A stretch of 23,965 nucleotides of DNA, taken from positions 1 to 23,965 of IMG/VR virus record IMGVR_UViG_3300028030_000434. One strand, written 5' to 3'. The stretch comes from a virus. Of this stretch, positions 6,887-23,965 are shown piece by piece. The translations under genes and the position numbers were made by a program. Within the stretch, counting starts at the first letter, position 1; each line of letters begins with the position of its first letter. Under the pieces are notes generated by a model. It had not been told where the DNA came from, ran no database searches, and saw nothing but the letters and a program-made list of their open reading frames with translations.

Positions 6887-7007
6887 ATAAACCCCTGTAA
6901 AAACACATTCATTAGCTTTACTGTGAATGCGAGGGTGTAACCCCTTTGTTAATAAAAATGTTTTCAAACATTTGATAAATGTTAGTATTATTTTGTATAT
7001 TTACATT

Positions 7008-8138
7008 ATGAAATTGACATTGAAAATAAAACTTTTGCCTGCTGATGAACAGAAACAACTTATCATAGACACTATGAAAGAAGTTAATACTGTTTGTAAT
7101 GCTATATCTAATATAGCTTGGGAAAGAAAAGTTTTTAATCAATTCAAAATTCATAAAGAAGTTTATCACCCTTTCAAGAATACATTTAATCTTTCTGCTC
7201 AAATGCTTGTACGTGCTATTTCTAAAGTTGCGGATTCGTATAAGATTGATAAAAAAGTTAAACGTAAATTTAGACTTTTGGGTGGCATTACTTATGATTC
7301 TCGTATTCTTACCTACAAACCCAATAATATTGTCTCCATTTGGCTTATCGGCGGTAGAAGTAAAATACCTTTTATTTGTCATAATAAAAAGTATATCCCT
7401 TACATTAAAGGAGAAGCTGACCTTATTTACAAAAAAGGTAAATTTTACTTGTTTCAAACCGTTGATGTTCCTGATGAAGAAATTAAAGATATTGAAGAAT
7501 TTATAGGTGTAGATTTTGGTCTTACAGATATAGCTGTTACTTCCGATGGTGTTGTGCATTCTGCTAAATGGCTTAACAACTATCGAGAGAAACGGCAAAA
7601 AGTTCGTAGTTCTATTCAAAGCAAAGGCACTAAAAGTTCTAAAAGACTTTTGAAACGGCTTAGTGGCAAAGAAAAAACTACTTCCAATATTATTAATCAT
7701 ACTATTTCTAAGTCTATTATTAAATCGGCTAAAAAGCAAGGCAAAGGCATTGCTATTGAAGATTTGACCGGTATCAGATTTACGAGTAAAAAAAGAAACA
7801 AAAAGTTTAGGACAAAACTTGGTAAATGGAATTTTAGCCAACTTAGATTTTTCCTTGAATACAAAGCTAAGCTTAACGGCGTTCAACTTGTAGTTGCCCC
7901 ACCGGCTTATACATCGCAAATTTGTAGTAGTTGTAATCATATTGGTAAAAGAATTAATAAAGTGTTCAAATGCACTAATAAAAATTGTGAAGTAGATACT
8001 ATTGATGCCGATTTGAATGCGTCTTATAATATCGCTTCGCTTGGGGCTTCCATAAACAAGCCTGAAAGTTCGAGTATGTTTTGCTTTTTGCATAATATCC
8101 TTAGTTCTAAAATTCACACATCTTTGGTGTGTGAGTAG
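7008..8138 (+). CDS. tnpB: TnpB RNA-guided nuclease (IS200/IS605 OrfB)
   Basis: The 376-residue protein is a complete TnpB, the RNA-guided DNA nuclease ancestral to Cas12. From Met at 7008 it has the N-terminal OrfB region (MKLTLKIKLLP), then the split RuvC core: I-G-V-D-F-G-L at 166-172 (D169), A-I-E-D-L-T-G at 249-255 (E251) and D-A-D-L-N-A-S-Y-N-I-A (D333/D335). A zinc finger C-S-S-C ... C-x-x-x-x-C lies at 306-327. All three acidic residues and four cysteines are present, so activity looks intact. It runs opposite to its neighbours, as expected of an insertion. The start at 7008 is preferred to 6927, which would read through the left-end palindromes. Confidence 0.93.
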   Translation: MKLTLKIKLLPADEQKQLIIDTMKEVNTVCNAISNIAWERKVFNQFKIHKEVYHPFKNTFNLSAQMLVRAISKVADSYKIDKKVKRKFRLLGGITYDSRILTYKPNNIVSIWLIGGRSKIPFICHNKKYIPYIKGEADLIYKKGKFYLFQTVDVPDEEIKDIEEFIGVDFGLTDIAVTSDGVVHSAKWLNNYREKRQKVRSSIQSKGTKSSKRLLKRLSGKEKTTSNIINHTISKSIIKSAKKQGKGIAIEDLTGIRFTSKKRNKKFRTKLGKWNFSQLRFFLEYKAKLNGVQLVVAPPAYTSQICSSCNHIGKRINKVFKCTNKNCEVDTIDADLNASYNIASLGASINKPESSSMFCFLHNILSSKIHTSLVCE

Positions 8139-10579: not shown

Positions 10580-10618
10580 TTAGATACGATTAGACAAGAT
10601 TTTAGACGCAAATTTAGA
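10580..10618. repeat. Four degenerate tandem TTAGA(C/T) repeats at the terminase stop
   Basis: The plus strand carries TTAGA starting at 10580, 10590, 10602 and 10614, spaced 10, 12 and 12 bases. On the coding strand these read as GCGTCTAAATTT, GCGTCTAAAATC, TTGTCTAATCG and TATCTAATTT. The first copy contains the terminase stop codon. Helical spacing suggests a protein-binding array, or replication slippage of the gene end. Confidence 0.45.
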
Positions 10619-13586
10619 CGCCCATAAAGTCGCTAAGTCGCCTTTTCCTATCATTTTGCAACTCTTTCAACCATTCCGGCGTATTGTCTTCTTTCTTCTC
10701 ACGAGGTTTTCTAAGATACAAAACGGCATATTTTGCCGAATCATAACAGTTTGAAACGAGTATATTGTTTGCGTAATATTCGTGGTGTCCTTCTATATGT
10801 AGATTATATACTTTCCTTTTCCCTAATTTTAAGCCTGTTATGTTTGCCTGCACATCTTTTTGAGCAATGCGTGGCTCTTTGGAATTTGGTTTTGTAAAAT
10901 TCCCGCCCGCAATATTCACATACCGTGAGTACATCCTTCGGAGCGTTGTCTCTTTGCCATTTTTGGTTACATTTTGGGGAGCAAAAGAAAGATGTTGTAA
11001 CGTGTGATTTGTATTTAGTGCCACAAACTTTACAAATACATTCCTTATCTTTTGTACGGTTAATCCAACTCTTTGCCCCAATAACAATATGTGCTTGCCT
11101 TCCTTCTTCGGATTTGTGCCATTTTGTCGCAAGTGGTCTGATTGCGTCCATCCGTGCCTTAATTTTATCGGGGTTGTTTTTGCAATAAAGTTTTGCGTGA
11201 TGCGATAAATGAGAAGATTTAAGAACGCATTCAAGGTTTTCAATCTTGTTATTAGATTTATCGCCGTCGATATGATGGATATGATAGCCTTTAGGAATCT
11301 TTTTTTTATGATAATCTTCCCAAATAGCCCGATGTAAATAAAAAACCTTTGTTTGTTTATTTGTTTGTTTATGCCCTCTAAAATACCCATCTTTGCCTTG
11401 ATGGTATTTAATACCTTTGAATACGATAGTTTTTCTTTGCATACGGCTTTCCTATATTTCTGCTTATCCAACTTACAATAAGTATTCGAGAGTGTCAAGT
11501 CCGATATAGGAATAAAATCTTTGTTTTCATTAGTGAATATCTTATGCGTTTCCGTCGATGCAAGATTAAGGTCAGGATAATAATTCACATCTGCCGATTC
11601 CCTTACAAATGTCATTAGTACCTTTTTGAAGCCTTCTCGTGTCCAGACATAATCACCAACTTTAACATCTCTAATTGGTATCTGTCCTCTTTTTGTAGCA
11701 ACTAATGTATTACCTAAAAAACAATGGTCTTCTTGCCCCTGCTCAATATCGTTTGGATTTGTCTTACTTACAACTAATGAAGGGAATGTCCTAATGAAGT
11801 TTCTACATCTTGCATATACAAGTATTTTCGGTTTTTGTATTATGTTTCCTACTTTGTCGGTTTTATAGTTCAGCAAATCGTGGAACAAATCGTTTGAACC
11901 TTCTCTATAACCTTTATTCTTTTCCGGCGAAGATTTTGAAACTTTAGCAAGCTTTATTCCGCTCTCTATGTATTGATAGGCGACGGTCGCACTAACATCA
12001 ACATCGAATCCGTCCTTAATCCACATATTTGTATCGCCCACAATTGTTATATTTTGCATTCCTCTTACTCTTAGAAATTCTTTAAGGTCTGAAATTTTCT
12101 TACTTCTTACCTCTTTTTCGTGATACAATTCATCGAACAGTAAGTAATTACCGTCTTTTGTCCTTGCAACCAAAGTTGTTACAGTAACATTCCCATAATC
12201 AAGACCGCCTACAATTGCCATATTCCCCTTGATTTCAGAATAACTTAAGTAATTTTCTTCTTCAACAATGTGTATTTCACTATTGAAGTCAAAGAATTGT
12301 CCTTCAAATATATTCCAGTCTCCGTATAATCGAGCTTGCTTCTTTGGCTCCGGTAAATGTGCAAGGTTATGTGCATAATCAGAGTACTTCAGGCAATAGT
12401 TCATTCTTTCTTTTTCAGTCCAGATATTATAATATTCTTCTACCGTGAATCCGTGCTCCTCAAGTTGACGCTCTACCCAAACAACATTATCCCAGATACG
12501 AGCTTCAAGGTAATAATAATCATCCGGGTTTTCGTAGCTTTCGTATTCCCTCGTTACAAATATCCTCTTATGATAATTGTGGGAAATAAATCCGGGTATC
12601 ATTGTGAGAATCATTTTTGCTTGCACTACTTTACTCCGGTTCCTTGTTTTCAGAAACTCTATCATATATTGAGTTGCAAGCGTTGATTCATCGATAAATA
12701 TATAATCGTATTCTTTTCCTTCAAACTGTTCAATGTCCTGCTCTTTGTCTGCGCTTCCGAATTTGATTGTATTGCCGGAAGGAAGATAAAGTATTCTTTC
12801 AGTTTTGTTGAAGTATTGCCGGAAATAAGAATGCGTTTGAAAGAAAGGGTTGATGTGATTCTCTAACAAATCGTTACTTAACCGCCTAAAGATGAGAATC
12901 TTAATCGGAACGGAATAAGCTCTACTTGTAAGTACCAGGGCAAGTTCTCTAACTGCGAATGATTTCGCTCCGCCGTTTGAATTGTGCGTTACTATCTTAT
13001 TGTTCATTAAGTACAAACCGTTCGGATTGCTAACAGTAATACATTTACATTCCTTTTTACCGATTTTTCTTATTTTTTTTACTTTTTTGAACGTTTTTTC
13101 ATCATTTTTGATGTTTTTTTCGGTGGGAATGAGAATTTTATACTTTTTCTGGAATATCTTATATAGTAGTTCGGTTGGATATATTCCGTCTTTTTGCTCG
13201 CTATCTATAATAATAGATGATTTCCAGAGATGGTCATAGCTTGTTTCTGCTTTTGTATTATCGTGAAAAGTAATTTCGTAAGTAAGTAATTTGCCTCTTT
13301 CGTGTATTTCTGTTATTGTCTGGTTAGTTCCGTCGGGGTTCTTAATTACATCACCAATCTTTGCATTTTGCATTGTAATGTAACTTTCCGGTGTTTCTAT
13401 CTTTCCTGTGAGTGGCTGCGCTCCGCCGTACCCAATAACTTTGTAGTTAGTTTCATCAATAAGCCTAAGTAATTCACTTTGCTTTGGTTGAAGTGCAACG
13501 GTTACTTTTTGTTTTTTTTGATTCTTTCTTATTAGTTTATTTTTTTTCTTTCTTTCAAGGAATCCGTTTGTATCTGTTGTAATCAT
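10614..13586 (-). CDS. terL: Terminase large subunit with two inteins
   Basis: The 990-residue precursor is the DNA-packaging ATPase/nuclease. Removing inteins A56-N202 and C622-N946 leaves about 518 residues, the normal TerL size. Extein motifs are as follows. The P-loop is G-Y-G-G then S-N-G-G-A-K-S-F (split by intein 1). Walker B is Y-D-Y-I-F-I-D-E at 293-300. The RNase H-like nuclease has G-L-D-Y-G (D463), I-V-G-D-T (D518) and C-Y-D-S-A-K-Y-A (D949, just after intein 2). The P-loop has Ala before Lys in place of Gly, a tolerated deviation in terminases. The start codon has no clear SD. It lies between the small terminase and portal genes, as usual. Confidence 0.92.
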   Translation of the reverse strand: MITTDTNGFLERKKKNKLIRKNQKKQKVTVALQPKQSELLRLIDETNYKVIGYGGAQPLTGKIETPESYITMQNAKIGDVIKNPDGTNQTITEIHERGKLLTYEITFHDNTKAETSYDHLWKSSIIIDSEQKDGIYPTELLYKIFQKKYKILIPTEKNIKNDEKTFKKVKKIRKIGKKECKCITVSNPNGLYLMNNKIVTHNSNGGAKSFAVRELALVLTSRAYSVPIKILIFRRLSNDLLENHINPFFQTHSYFRQYFNKTERILYLPSGNTIKFGSADKEQDIEQFEGKEYDYIFIDESTLATQYMIEFLKTRNRSKVVQAKMILTMIPGFISHNYHKRIFVTREYESYENPDDYYYLEARIWDNVVWVERQLEEHGFTVEEYYNIWTEKERMNYCLKYSDYAHNLAHLPEPKKQARLYGDWNIFEGQFFDFNSEIHIVEEENYLSYSEIKGNMAIVGGLDYGNVTVTTLVARTKDGNYLLFDELYHEKEVRSKKISDLKEFLRVRGMQNITIVGDTNMWIKDGFDVDVSATVAYQYIESGIKLAKVSKSSPEKNKGYREGSNDLFHDLLNYKTDKVGNIIQKPKILVYARCRNFIRTFPSLVVSKTNPNDIEQGQEDHCFLGNTLVATKRGQIPIRDVKVGDYVWTREGFKKVLMTFVRESADVNYYPDLNLASTETHKIFTNENKDFIPISDLTLSNTYCKLDKQKYRKAVCKEKLSYSKVLNTIKAKMGILEGINKQINKQRFFIYIGLFGKIIIKKRFLKAIISIISTAINLITRLKTLNAFLNLLIYRITQNFIAKTTPIKLRHGWTQSDHLRQNGTNPKKEGKHILLLGQRVGLTVQKIRNVFVKFVALNTNHTLQHLSFAPQNVTKNGKETTLRRMYSRYVNIAGGNFTKPNSKEPRIAQKDVQANITGLKLGKRKVYNLHIEGHHEYYANNILVSNCYDSAKYAVLYLRKPREKKEDNTPEWLKELQNDRKRRLSDFMGV
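10749..11723 (-). other. Intein 2: class 1 intein at the terminase nuclease motif III
   Basis: Residues C622 to N946 of the precursor form a standard Cys-type intein. Block A is C-F-L-G-N-T-L-V-A-T, followed by I-R-D-V-K-V-G-D-Y-V; block B is S-T-E-T-H (T678, H681). Block F is V-Y-N-L-H-I-E-G-H-H-E-Y-Y-A-N, and block G is N-I-L-V-S-N with Cys947 as +1. The usual penultimate His is Ser945. Between blocks B and F lies a ~210-residue Lys/Ile/Asn-rich stretch that is not an endonuclease in this frame. It is the overprinted shadow of a separate HNH gene. The insertion point is immediately before the Y-D-S-A-K-Y-A nuclease motif. Confidence 0.9.
10804..11442 (-). CDS. HNH endonuclease nested out of frame inside intein 2
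   Basis: The 212-residue protein is a complete HNH homing endonuclease. The HNH core is Y-H-I-H-H-I-D-G-D-K-S-N-N-K-I-E-N-L (53-70), with a further H-x-x-H-H near 78-82. Two C-terminal zinc fingers follow, C-x-x-C-G ... C-x-x-x-C (137-158) and C-x-x-C-G-R-E-F ... C-x-x-x-C (175-197). It reads on the same strand as the terminase but in a different frame. It begins at ATG 11442 with AGGAAAG about six bases upstream, and its TAA lies across codons 927-928 of the terminase frame, inside intein block F. It can therefore be translated on its own. Its likely target is the intein-free terminase nuclease motif. Confidence 0.9.
   Translation of the reverse strand: MQRKTIVFKGIKYHQGKDGYFRGHKQTNKQTKVFYLHRAIWEDYHKKKIPKGYHIHHIDGDKSNNKIENLECVLKSSHLSHHAKLYCKNNPDKIKARMDAIRPLATKWHKSEEGRQAHIVIGAKSWINRTKDKECICKVCGTKYKSHVTTSFFCSPKCNQKWQRDNAPKDVLTVCEYCGREFYKTKFQRATHCSKRCAGKHNRLKIREKESI
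12981..13421 (-). other. Intein 1: class 3 (W-C-T) mini-intein in the terminase P-loop
   Basis: Residues A56 to N202 of the terminase precursor form a Hint domain inserted in the ATP-binding loop. The N-terminus reads A-Q-P-L-T-G-K-I-E-T-P, with no Cys or Ser nucleophile. Class 3 markers are all present: Trp121 in D-H-L-W (block B), Cys182 in C-K-C-I-T-V-S-N-P (block F) and Thr200 before H201-N202 (block G). In this class the internal Cys makes the first branched ester. The +1 residue is Ser203. There is no endonuclease domain (about 147 residues). The start is A56 or Q57; A56 gives the usual P-loop spacing (G-x4-A/G-K-S) after splicing. Confidence 0.88.
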
Positions 13587-22900: not shown

Positions 22901-23205
22901 CAAATGAACTTTCCCGGTATTTCCGGGTATTTCACTTTTACATTTAGCCAATTTGCAACCTCTTTTGTTAGAAATAACTCCGTTGTCATTAGTACGGAGA
23001 CTACTTCGTGTATATCATCAAGAATATCCACTCTATTAGAATACTCCTGAAATAATTTACTTATTTTATATTTTTTATCAGATAATTCTATTCCTTGAAA
23101 AATTATTAACTTAACCAGTCTTTCTTTAACCGCTACCGGTATTTCTTTGTATATTTCTTCGACATAGGGAAGATGCTTAACCCCTTCTTTCGTGTATTCA
23201 ATCAT
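22900..23205 (-). CDS. Hypothetical protein
   Basis: The 101-residue product is not recognised. It is helical, with V-A-V-K-E-R-L-V-K-L-I-I-F-Q-G-I-E-L and a C-terminal E-V-A-N-W-L-N-V-K-V-K-Y-P. AGGAG precedes the ATG at good distance. It overlaps the DUF5131 gene end by eight bases, so it is the next gene in that operon. Confidence 0.6.
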   Translation of the reverse strand: MIEYTKEGVKHLPYVEEIYKEIPVAVKERLVKLIIFQGIELSDKKYKISKLFQEYSNRVDILDDIHEVVSVLMTTELFLTKEVANWLNVKVKYPEIPGKFI

Positions 23206-23965
23206 TTGGGAACTCCTGCCGTTGTAAATATTTCGGGAATTTAGAAATATCTTTTTCTATTTTCCCGTCAATTTCTATTTGTTTAACAAACACAGACTTG
23301 CCGTATATTTCCGCCTGCTTAACAATTGCACCTATCCATTCTGTTTTGGTACGTTGTTTATTTCTTCCTGACATTGCACCAACAATTATCCAATCCACAA
23401 GACCCGCACCAAACATTTTCCTAGTTGGAATGTACTCCAAGACAGGCTCGAAGGAAACATATCTTATCCTTTCAGTCTTTATAAATTCGTTCAAATCGAA
23501 TAGTTTAGTTAATTCATTTTCTTTTGTTACAGTTACACCAAACCAAACATTATCCGGCATAATCGGGTCAAGTTTTTTATACACTTTCGGAAATTTCGTT
23601 AGGAACAAAAAGGTATGCTGCGGATGTTTTTTGATGCGTTCCACTACTCTATTCATCCACTCATCCTTCCAAAAAGCAATATCCGACATTGAGCCAACGA
23701 ATATTCGGCTCGGTTTTTTCGGTAATTGCTTTTCCAATTGGTGTTCAAATAAAAAAGGTTCAAAGCTTTGAATTTTCTCGATTTTATCATCGTAATAAAC
23801 CTCAGCAATTTCCGGGTCTATATTTCGATACTCATTTTCCGCTCTTACCATCGGTTCGGCAAATCTTTTCGCTATTCCTTTTGCATAACAATTATGAGAA
23901 GCATATCCATTTGCAAAATAAGTATGTTCAGAAGTTGTTATATCAATTAAATCTAAAAATCCAAC
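23198..23965 (-). CDS. DUF5131 (phage Gp37/Gp68) protein, C-terminal part, intein-interrupted
   Basis: The visible frame runs open to the window edge and is longer than a reading from the ATG at 23851 would suggest. The mature part begins C-Y-A-K-G-I-A-K-R-F, the conserved C-Y-A-E-x-x-A-K-R segment that in this family closes an N-terminal cysteine cluster. It continues with F-V-G-S-M-S-D, L-F-L-T-K-F-P, N-V-W-F-G-V-T-V, R-Y-V-S-F-E-P-V-L and W-I-I-V-G-A-M-S-G, all family landmarks. Upstream of the Cys lie 25 residues of an intein. The family role is unknown; its cysteine cluster suggests metal binding. The ATG at 23851 is not the true start. Confidence 0.85.
   Translation of the reverse strand, partial: VGFLDLIDITTSEHTYFANGYASHNCYAKGIAKRFAEPMVRAENEYRNIDPEIAEVYYDDKIEKIQSFEPFLFEHQLEKQLPKKPSRIFVGSMSDIAFWKDEWMNRVVERIKKHPQHTFLFLTKFPKVYKKLDPIMPDNVWFGVTVTKENELTKLFDLNEFIKTERIRYVSFEPVLEYIPTRKMFGAGLVDWIIVGAMSGRNKQRTKTEWIGAIVKQAEIYGKSVFVKQIEIDGKIEKDISKFPKYLQRQEFPND
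23891..23965 (-). other. Intein 3: C-terminal end of an intein in the DUF5131 gene
   Basis: The 25 in-frame residues before the DUF5131 Cys read F-L-D-L-I-D-I-T-T-S-E-H-T-Y-F-A-N-G-Y-A-S-H-N. This is intein block F (L-I-D-I-x-x-x-x-H-T-Y-F-A-N-G) and block G ending in S-H-N, with Cys as the +1 residue. The intein N-terminus and any endonuclease lie beyond the window. Confidence 0.88.

Follow-up and report, generated by a model that had tools for sequence, protein, structure and literature searches.

Phage genes fractured by split inteins, with an endonuclease gene lying between the two intein halves, were reportedly described by Dassa et al. in 2009. An HNH endonuclease with zinc fingers has also been described out of frame within a stop-free, in-frame insertion in a phage DNA methylase, an arrangement referred to as the ShiLan domain or 'hidden HNH' (Arsenault, Gosselin, and Gogarten 2025, PMC11855218), and its authors report the absence of an intein or intron splicing signature (PMC11855218). 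That paper cites a preprint on inteins of 'non-canonical architecture' (Gosselin et al. 2025) for overlapping reading frames in actinobacteriophages. Here, we describe an HNH gene nested out of frame within an intein of the terminase large subunit (TerL) gene in the IMG/VR virus record IMGVR_UViG_3300028030_000434. The whole 23,965-nt stretch that was analyzed is called the window, and all coordinates are given on it. Our search of the literature for inteins combined with an out-of-frame endonuclease returned only ShiLan-related papers; the preprint of Gosselin et al. (10.1101/2025.01.02.630785) may already describe such inteins.

An HNH gene nested in a terminase intein

The TerL precursor is encoded by a single stop-free open reading frame (ORF) that comprises an N-extein, a class-3-like mini-intein, the ATPase/nuclease region, the intein with the nested HNH gene, and a C-extein. 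Our analysis confirmed that a complete HNH gene is nested out of frame in the open intein C622–N946, and the coordinates given for both in an earlier, preliminary description of this DNA proved exact (Table 1). The HNH frame is +2/−1 relative to the TerL/intein frame, and the gene occupies the usual slot of an in-frame intein endonuclease domain. A Pfam search of the HNH frame identified HNH_3 (PF13392; 8.7e-15), with the H and N columns invariant, and two zinc knuckles of the form CxxC...CxxxC. The other features originally ascribed to the gene, namely a length of 212 residues, its own Shine–Dalgarno (SD) sequence, and its own stop, were likewise seen in the sequence, as was an ATG start; the stop, a TAA, falls at intein residues 306–307, which is the start of block F. 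Among the PDB sequences, the HNH profile matched only one, the homing endonuclease 1u3e (E = 0.0024).

The intein is inserted within the TerL nuclease motif DHxxDA (..NPNDIEQGQEDH/C...N/CYDSAKYAV, with slashes at the splice junctions), and a relative, L003, has an intein-less site (..PDHDFDSMKY). In the TerL frame, Pfam detected Hint_2 (2e-6), Intein_splicing (3.4e-7), and Terminase_6N, and the intein frame also matched PHROG family 30251, which is labelled 'terminase'. The class 1 splicing residues are present, including C1, the block B TxxH motif (T57..H60), N325, and a Cys at the +1 position. The claim that the splicing ends are intact held across the family: among the distinct nested inteins, C1 was found in 129/129 and the terminal Asn in 128/129, and the +1 residue was Cys in 122 and Ser in 5 of the 127 that could be read. 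When the window intein was modelled with AlphaFold together with 66 family members, the predicted local distance difference test (pLDDT) scores were 90–98 for residues 1–100 and 97–98 for residues 301–325, and 40–82 for most of the overprinted middle. The best PDB fold match found with Foldseek was the gp41-1 intein (E = 3.4e-5), which was also the best match in the profile search. The model thus predicts with confidence a Hint fold at both ends, and the overprinted middle of ~200 residues is non-conserved and probably disordered. Taken together, the intein looks functional, and its self-excision is predicted.

Relatives were collected by alignment-seeded scans of viral contigs and of bacterial and archaeal genomes, followed by classification with hidden Markov models; the alignment seeds were needed because a scan of the viral contigs with the window HNH as a single query gave zero matches. 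A tblastn search of phage records found co-located matches of the intein frame and the HNH frame, in different frames, in three phages, namely Acinetobacter phage Highwayman, Rhodobacteraceae phage LS06-2018-MD07, and a human-gut phage contig. Matches in both frames were also present in Tetrasphaera phage TJE1. In all four, the relative frame was identical and the TerL frame continuous, and in the deposited Highwayman, LS06-2018-MD07, and TJE1 genomes the nested nuclease is unannotated. The recurrence of the same arrangement in finished phage genomes and in many independent contigs led us to reject an assembly indel or sequencing error, an artefact that the preliminary description had named as a possible refutation.

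The wider search that had been proposed yielded 178 nested loci, of which 145 were distinct in their HNH DNA; the intein frame was open in 145/145, and the HNH was in the −1 frame in 145/145. There are therefore at least 145 distinct nested sequences, nearly all of them viral. When viral contigs were scanned with the HNH as the sole seed, 80 loci were recovered, among them 64 nested and 14 free-standing ones. Nested copies in genomes include those assigned to Bacteroides, Parabacteroides, Nitrospiraceae, Patescibacteria, and a Thermoplasmatales archaeon, mostly on contigs of metagenome-assembled genomes (MAGs), in which binning errors are possible. When ten divergent N-exteins were tested, eight matched TerL families in Pfam (Terminase_3, Terminase_6/T7-like, and GpA), one matched another intein only (L150), and one had no match (L164). 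The nested arrangement is, then, carried by several TerL families. Most insertion points clustered at the DHxxDA nuclease motif, offset by a few residues, and some lay in a different motif (ADWGFA/CDPTA). Three loci without intein-frame stops were set aside from the free-standing class: L120 and L092 are truncated at contig ends, and L094 was assigned to the nested class by refined profiles.

Constraint on the two reading frames

The preliminary description had proposed that the intein was invaded by the HNH gene, which persisted only where the terminase frame remained open, and the comparison of nested and non-nested copies agrees with this proposal. When the codons of the window HNH were shuffled synonymously, with the protein and codon set fixed, the intein frame was open in 3.2% of trials, so that the window on its own is suggestive and the comparison over the 145 distinct open homologues is decisive. 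Across the family, the same shuffle predicted an open intein frame in 10%, and all 145 were open. Over ~190 codons each, the intein frame contained no stops in the nested copies, compared with means of 7.5 in the split and 8.0 in the free-standing relatives, none of which had zero stops in the equivalent frame. In particular, a Leu, Ile, or Val codon followed by a codon starting with A or G produced an intein-frame stop in 0/1752 cases in the nested copies versus 46–49% in the relatives. Where Met precedes M, I, T, N, or K in the HNH, a TGA in the intein frame is unavoidable under any codon choice, and these dipeptides were absent from the nested copies alone (0/204 versus 31/78 and 31/96, or 32–40%, in the relatives). 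Furthermore, internal Met was about half as frequent in the nested HNHs, and the base 3′ of the HNH start codon was A in 0/142.

Among closely related pairs, substitutions at HNH codon positions 1, 2, and 3 accounted for 28%, 21%, and 51%, respectively, the same as in the non-nested HNHs (p = 0.51), whereas substitutions touching an intein-frame stop were depleted (2.1% versus 7.3%, p = 5e-8). By these sequence comparisons, the HNH frame is constrained in the way usual for a protein, and no constraint beyond stop-freeness seems detectable in the overprinted intein middle; the unchanged substitution phases indicate that the intein frame is apparently selected for openness alone. The use of a single relative frame has an explanation in the composition of the nuclease. 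A stop in the −1 frame requires an HNH codon with T at position 2, which applies to ~17% of codons, and HNH proteins are polar (Cys/His/Lys-rich), with few such codons and thus few potential stops. The other forward frame contained about 21–23 stops on average.

The exclusive use of the −1 frame is also what would be required if the nuclease arose as an IntN–HNH fusion when ribosomes slip by −1 out of the intein frame (IntN and IntC being the N- and C-terminal intein parts). This is highly improbable, because a start codon (ATG, GTG, or TTG) lies just upstream of the HNH domain in 130/131 nested copies, SD sequences are enriched before these starts (≤ −6 kcal/mol in 41%, versus 11% at internal ATGs), and the frame choice is accounted for by the stop statistics. 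Moreover, an in-frame stop lies 9 nt before the HNH start in the window, at a median distance of 12 nt in the family, leaving hardly any room for an upstream frameshift, and frameshift entry into the HNH was rejected on this ground. Group I introns often host HNH_3 genes, which would fit a region that is an RNA intron carrying the HNH gene, with an incidentally open intein frame. However, the check for an RNA intron envisaged in the preliminary description gave no Rfam intron match in the window, the C1, Asn, and +1 residues and the Hint fold are conserved, and stops are avoided in the protein frame throughout the family; we regard this explanation as extremely improbable and rejected it.

We consider the best explanation, with a probability of roughly 0.82, to be that an HNH homing-endonuclease gene invaded a mini-intein, such that read-through yields a splicing terminase and internal initiation yields the nuclease. 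The intein frame would encode the Hint splicing domain, and the slot of the endonuclease domain would hold an accidental −1-frame translation of the HNH_3 gene. Ribosomes that start at the TerL start codon would cross the HNH gene, and the precursor would excise the intein to give an active terminase; other ribosomes would start at the SD and ATG of the HNH within the same mRNA, and we infer that terminase and nuclease are produced separately in this way. The HNH is probably the enzyme that spreads the intein, in that it would nick or cut intein-less terL alleles, with the intein and HNH then copied together.

Several points weigh against this explanation. A strong SD sequence is found in only about half of the nested family, and the penultimate residue of the window intein is Ser rather than His, as it is in 33/128 relatives. 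The role in homing is deduced from the family, the position, and the scattered distribution of the HNH. The open frame also defines the 'nested' class, which makes the zero-stop count partly definitional; the argument stands because so many nested loci exist and intermediates are absent. In addition, free-standing HNH relatives adjoin terS or terL in several phages, and the HNH of HK97 has been discussed as a packaging factor (PMC10448857), as might be expected if the HNH were a packaging nuclease that cooperates with the terminase, a role reported for HK97-type HNH proteins, and is encoded in the terL intein by coincidence. We think this unlikely, given that the HNH profile matches the homing endonuclease 1u3e and the gene sits at the intein endonuclease position, that HNHs also occur inside split terL inteins and are absent from terL of the related phage L003, and that one relative (L202) is an in-frame intein HNH outside the packaging context.

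Split, in-frame, and HNH-less relatives

Among the related ARRANGEMENTS, split, in-frame, and HNH-less states were found, together with an HNH tree that mixes nested, split, and free copies. In the split state, IntN is closed by a stop and is followed by the HNH gene and then by IntC–TerL-C with its own start, often preceded by a strong SD. In 32 distinct relatives, the intein frame is interrupted to give a split intein that surrounds the HNH. These relatives have no need of an open frame, and their HNH was in relative frames 0, 1, and 2 in 9, 13, and 10 distinct cases, respectively. The preliminary description would have been undermined if stops normally interrupted the intein frame of homologues; such homologues do exist, but as this separate split-intein state, and the window intein, open along its whole length, does not fit that class. 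A terL gene whose IntN and IntC halves are separated by an HNH gene, with an SD before IntC, was observed in L193, L197, L214–L217, L239, L240, L248, and others. The same organization occurs in Lactobacillus phage CL2 (L015, 1670–2684), in which terL is annotated as a complete gene; this phage had been a candidate for a free-standing HNH and was rejected as such, being a split intein instead.

The existence of split relatives with a strong SD before IntC also suggests that the nested copies could themselves be split inteins in which translation of the C-half begins at a separate internal start, with the open frame incidental. In the nested copies, however, an SD of ≤ −6 kcal/mol precedes a possible IntC start in 39%, even with more candidate starts, versus 75% in the split relatives, and incidental openness leaves the 145/145 open frames unexplained; this reading is accordingly very improbable.

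The in-frame state is represented by L202 (818–2086), a canonical in-frame HNH intein with a reductase-like extein from an Armatimonadetes MAG, whose HNH belongs to the same superfamily as the window HNH. The HNH-less state is represented by the archaeal virus vir335 (L017), which has a TerL intein of 132 amino acids, whereas the near-identical virus L160 has a nested form of 345 amino acids. The predicted endonuclease-free homologue therefore exists, but not as the exact deletion that had been anticipated: the two viruses barely differ in their exteins and intein ends, but their intein middles have been exchanged rather than one being cleanly deleted. The idea that L017 derives from the nested form by deletion was rejected because no HNH remnant was detectable in it.

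In the HNH tree, nested, split, and free copies were intermixed, and the best tree required 22 or more changes of state. The well-supported branches forced 6 changes of the nested label, with long branches leaving the details unsure, and at least 4 were forced by a tree restricted to nested and free copies. It is possible, and we put it forward tentatively, that dual-coding inteins form a widespread, undescribed class of mobile elements, in which a single terL-targeting HNH family passes between nested, split, and free states and terminase function is preserved either through an open overlapping frame or through splitting. If so, interconversion would explain in concrete terms how phage split inteins like gp41-1 arise. 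Through this one family, free-standing homing genes are connected with nested inteins and with phage split inteins, the last of which are the origin of widely used protein-ligation tools. The family also provides a large natural collection of genes that overlap on the same strand, with matched non-overlapping controls, in which overprinting can be measured directly, with one frame constrained as a protein (the nuclease) and the other apparently for the absence of stops alone. Inteins can thus carry an endonuclease that is not fused to them, and the use of the −1 frame is explained.

Other elements of the window and comparison with known systems

The smaller intein in TerL lies in the Walker A region (Table 1) and, lacking C1, appears class-3-like from its sequence. 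A larger intein adjoining the Walker A motif was observed in L004, and its end (ECKCIT.DNPNGLY..VTHN) resembles that of the 146-amino-acid intein in the window. Elsewhere in the window, a free-standing endonuclease gene with NUMOD4 and HNH_3 lies at 1–681 (−), and a TnpB-like ORF (Cas12f1-like_TNB, 4.6e-19; OrfB_IS605) lies at 6927–8138 (+), whereas the phage genes are on the other strand. A DUF5131 protein at 23198–23965 (−) opens at the window edge with an apparent intein C-terminus (SEHTYFANGYASHN/CYAKG), and its gene possibly holds a third intein.

Table 1. Positions of the TerL precursor, its inteins, and the nested HNH gene in the window
Feature	Position	Strand	Description and basis
TerL precursor ORF	10614..13586	−	990 aa, stop-free
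Intein C622–N946	10749..11723	−	325 codons, open throughout
Intein N-terminal splicing part (blocks A and B, residues 1–92)	11448..11723	−	AlphaFold; resembles gp41-1 and other inteins in profile and fold
TAG in the HNH frame	11452..11454	−	9 nt upstream of the ATG, closes the frame on that side; sequence
SD sequence AGGAAAG	11447..11453	−	4 nt upstream of the HNH ATG; sequence, SD enriched in the family
HNH endonuclease gene	10804..11442	−	212 aa, HNH_3 and two zinc knuckles; ORF and Pfam, intein frame open across the gene
Intein C-terminal splicing part (blocks F and G)	10749..10817	−	end KVYNLHIEGHHEYYANNILVSN; alignments, AlphaFold
Second intein in TerL (Walker A region)	12981..13418	−	146 aa, without endonuclease; sequence, weak Intein_splicing match (E = 0.006)

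Of the systems described to date, the ShiLan HNH resembles the window HNH in that it, too, occupies the −1 frame, and the two are distantly related (38.8 bits). However, no Hint blocks of the type found in the window flank the ShiLan HNH, whereas the window HNH lies within a complete TerL intein. The split inteins gp41-1 and NrdJ-1 are similar in another respect, because gp41-1 is the nearest solved intein by both sequence and fold and the window family includes split members; their inteins consist of two polypeptides, whereas the window intein is a single continuous frame that overprints the nuclease gene. Canonical inteins with an in-frame endonuclease share the position between blocks B and F, and L202 is an in-frame relative, but the window endonuclease has a start and stop of its own in a different frame. 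Finally, group I introns with endonuclease ORFs likewise combine a splicing element with an independent endonuclease gene, and in the collaborative homing of free-standing homing endonuclease genes that adjoin terL (PMC10448857), an independent endonuclease gene lies beside the host gene. The window differs from both in that splicing would act on the protein and the host frame continues across the nuclease gene.

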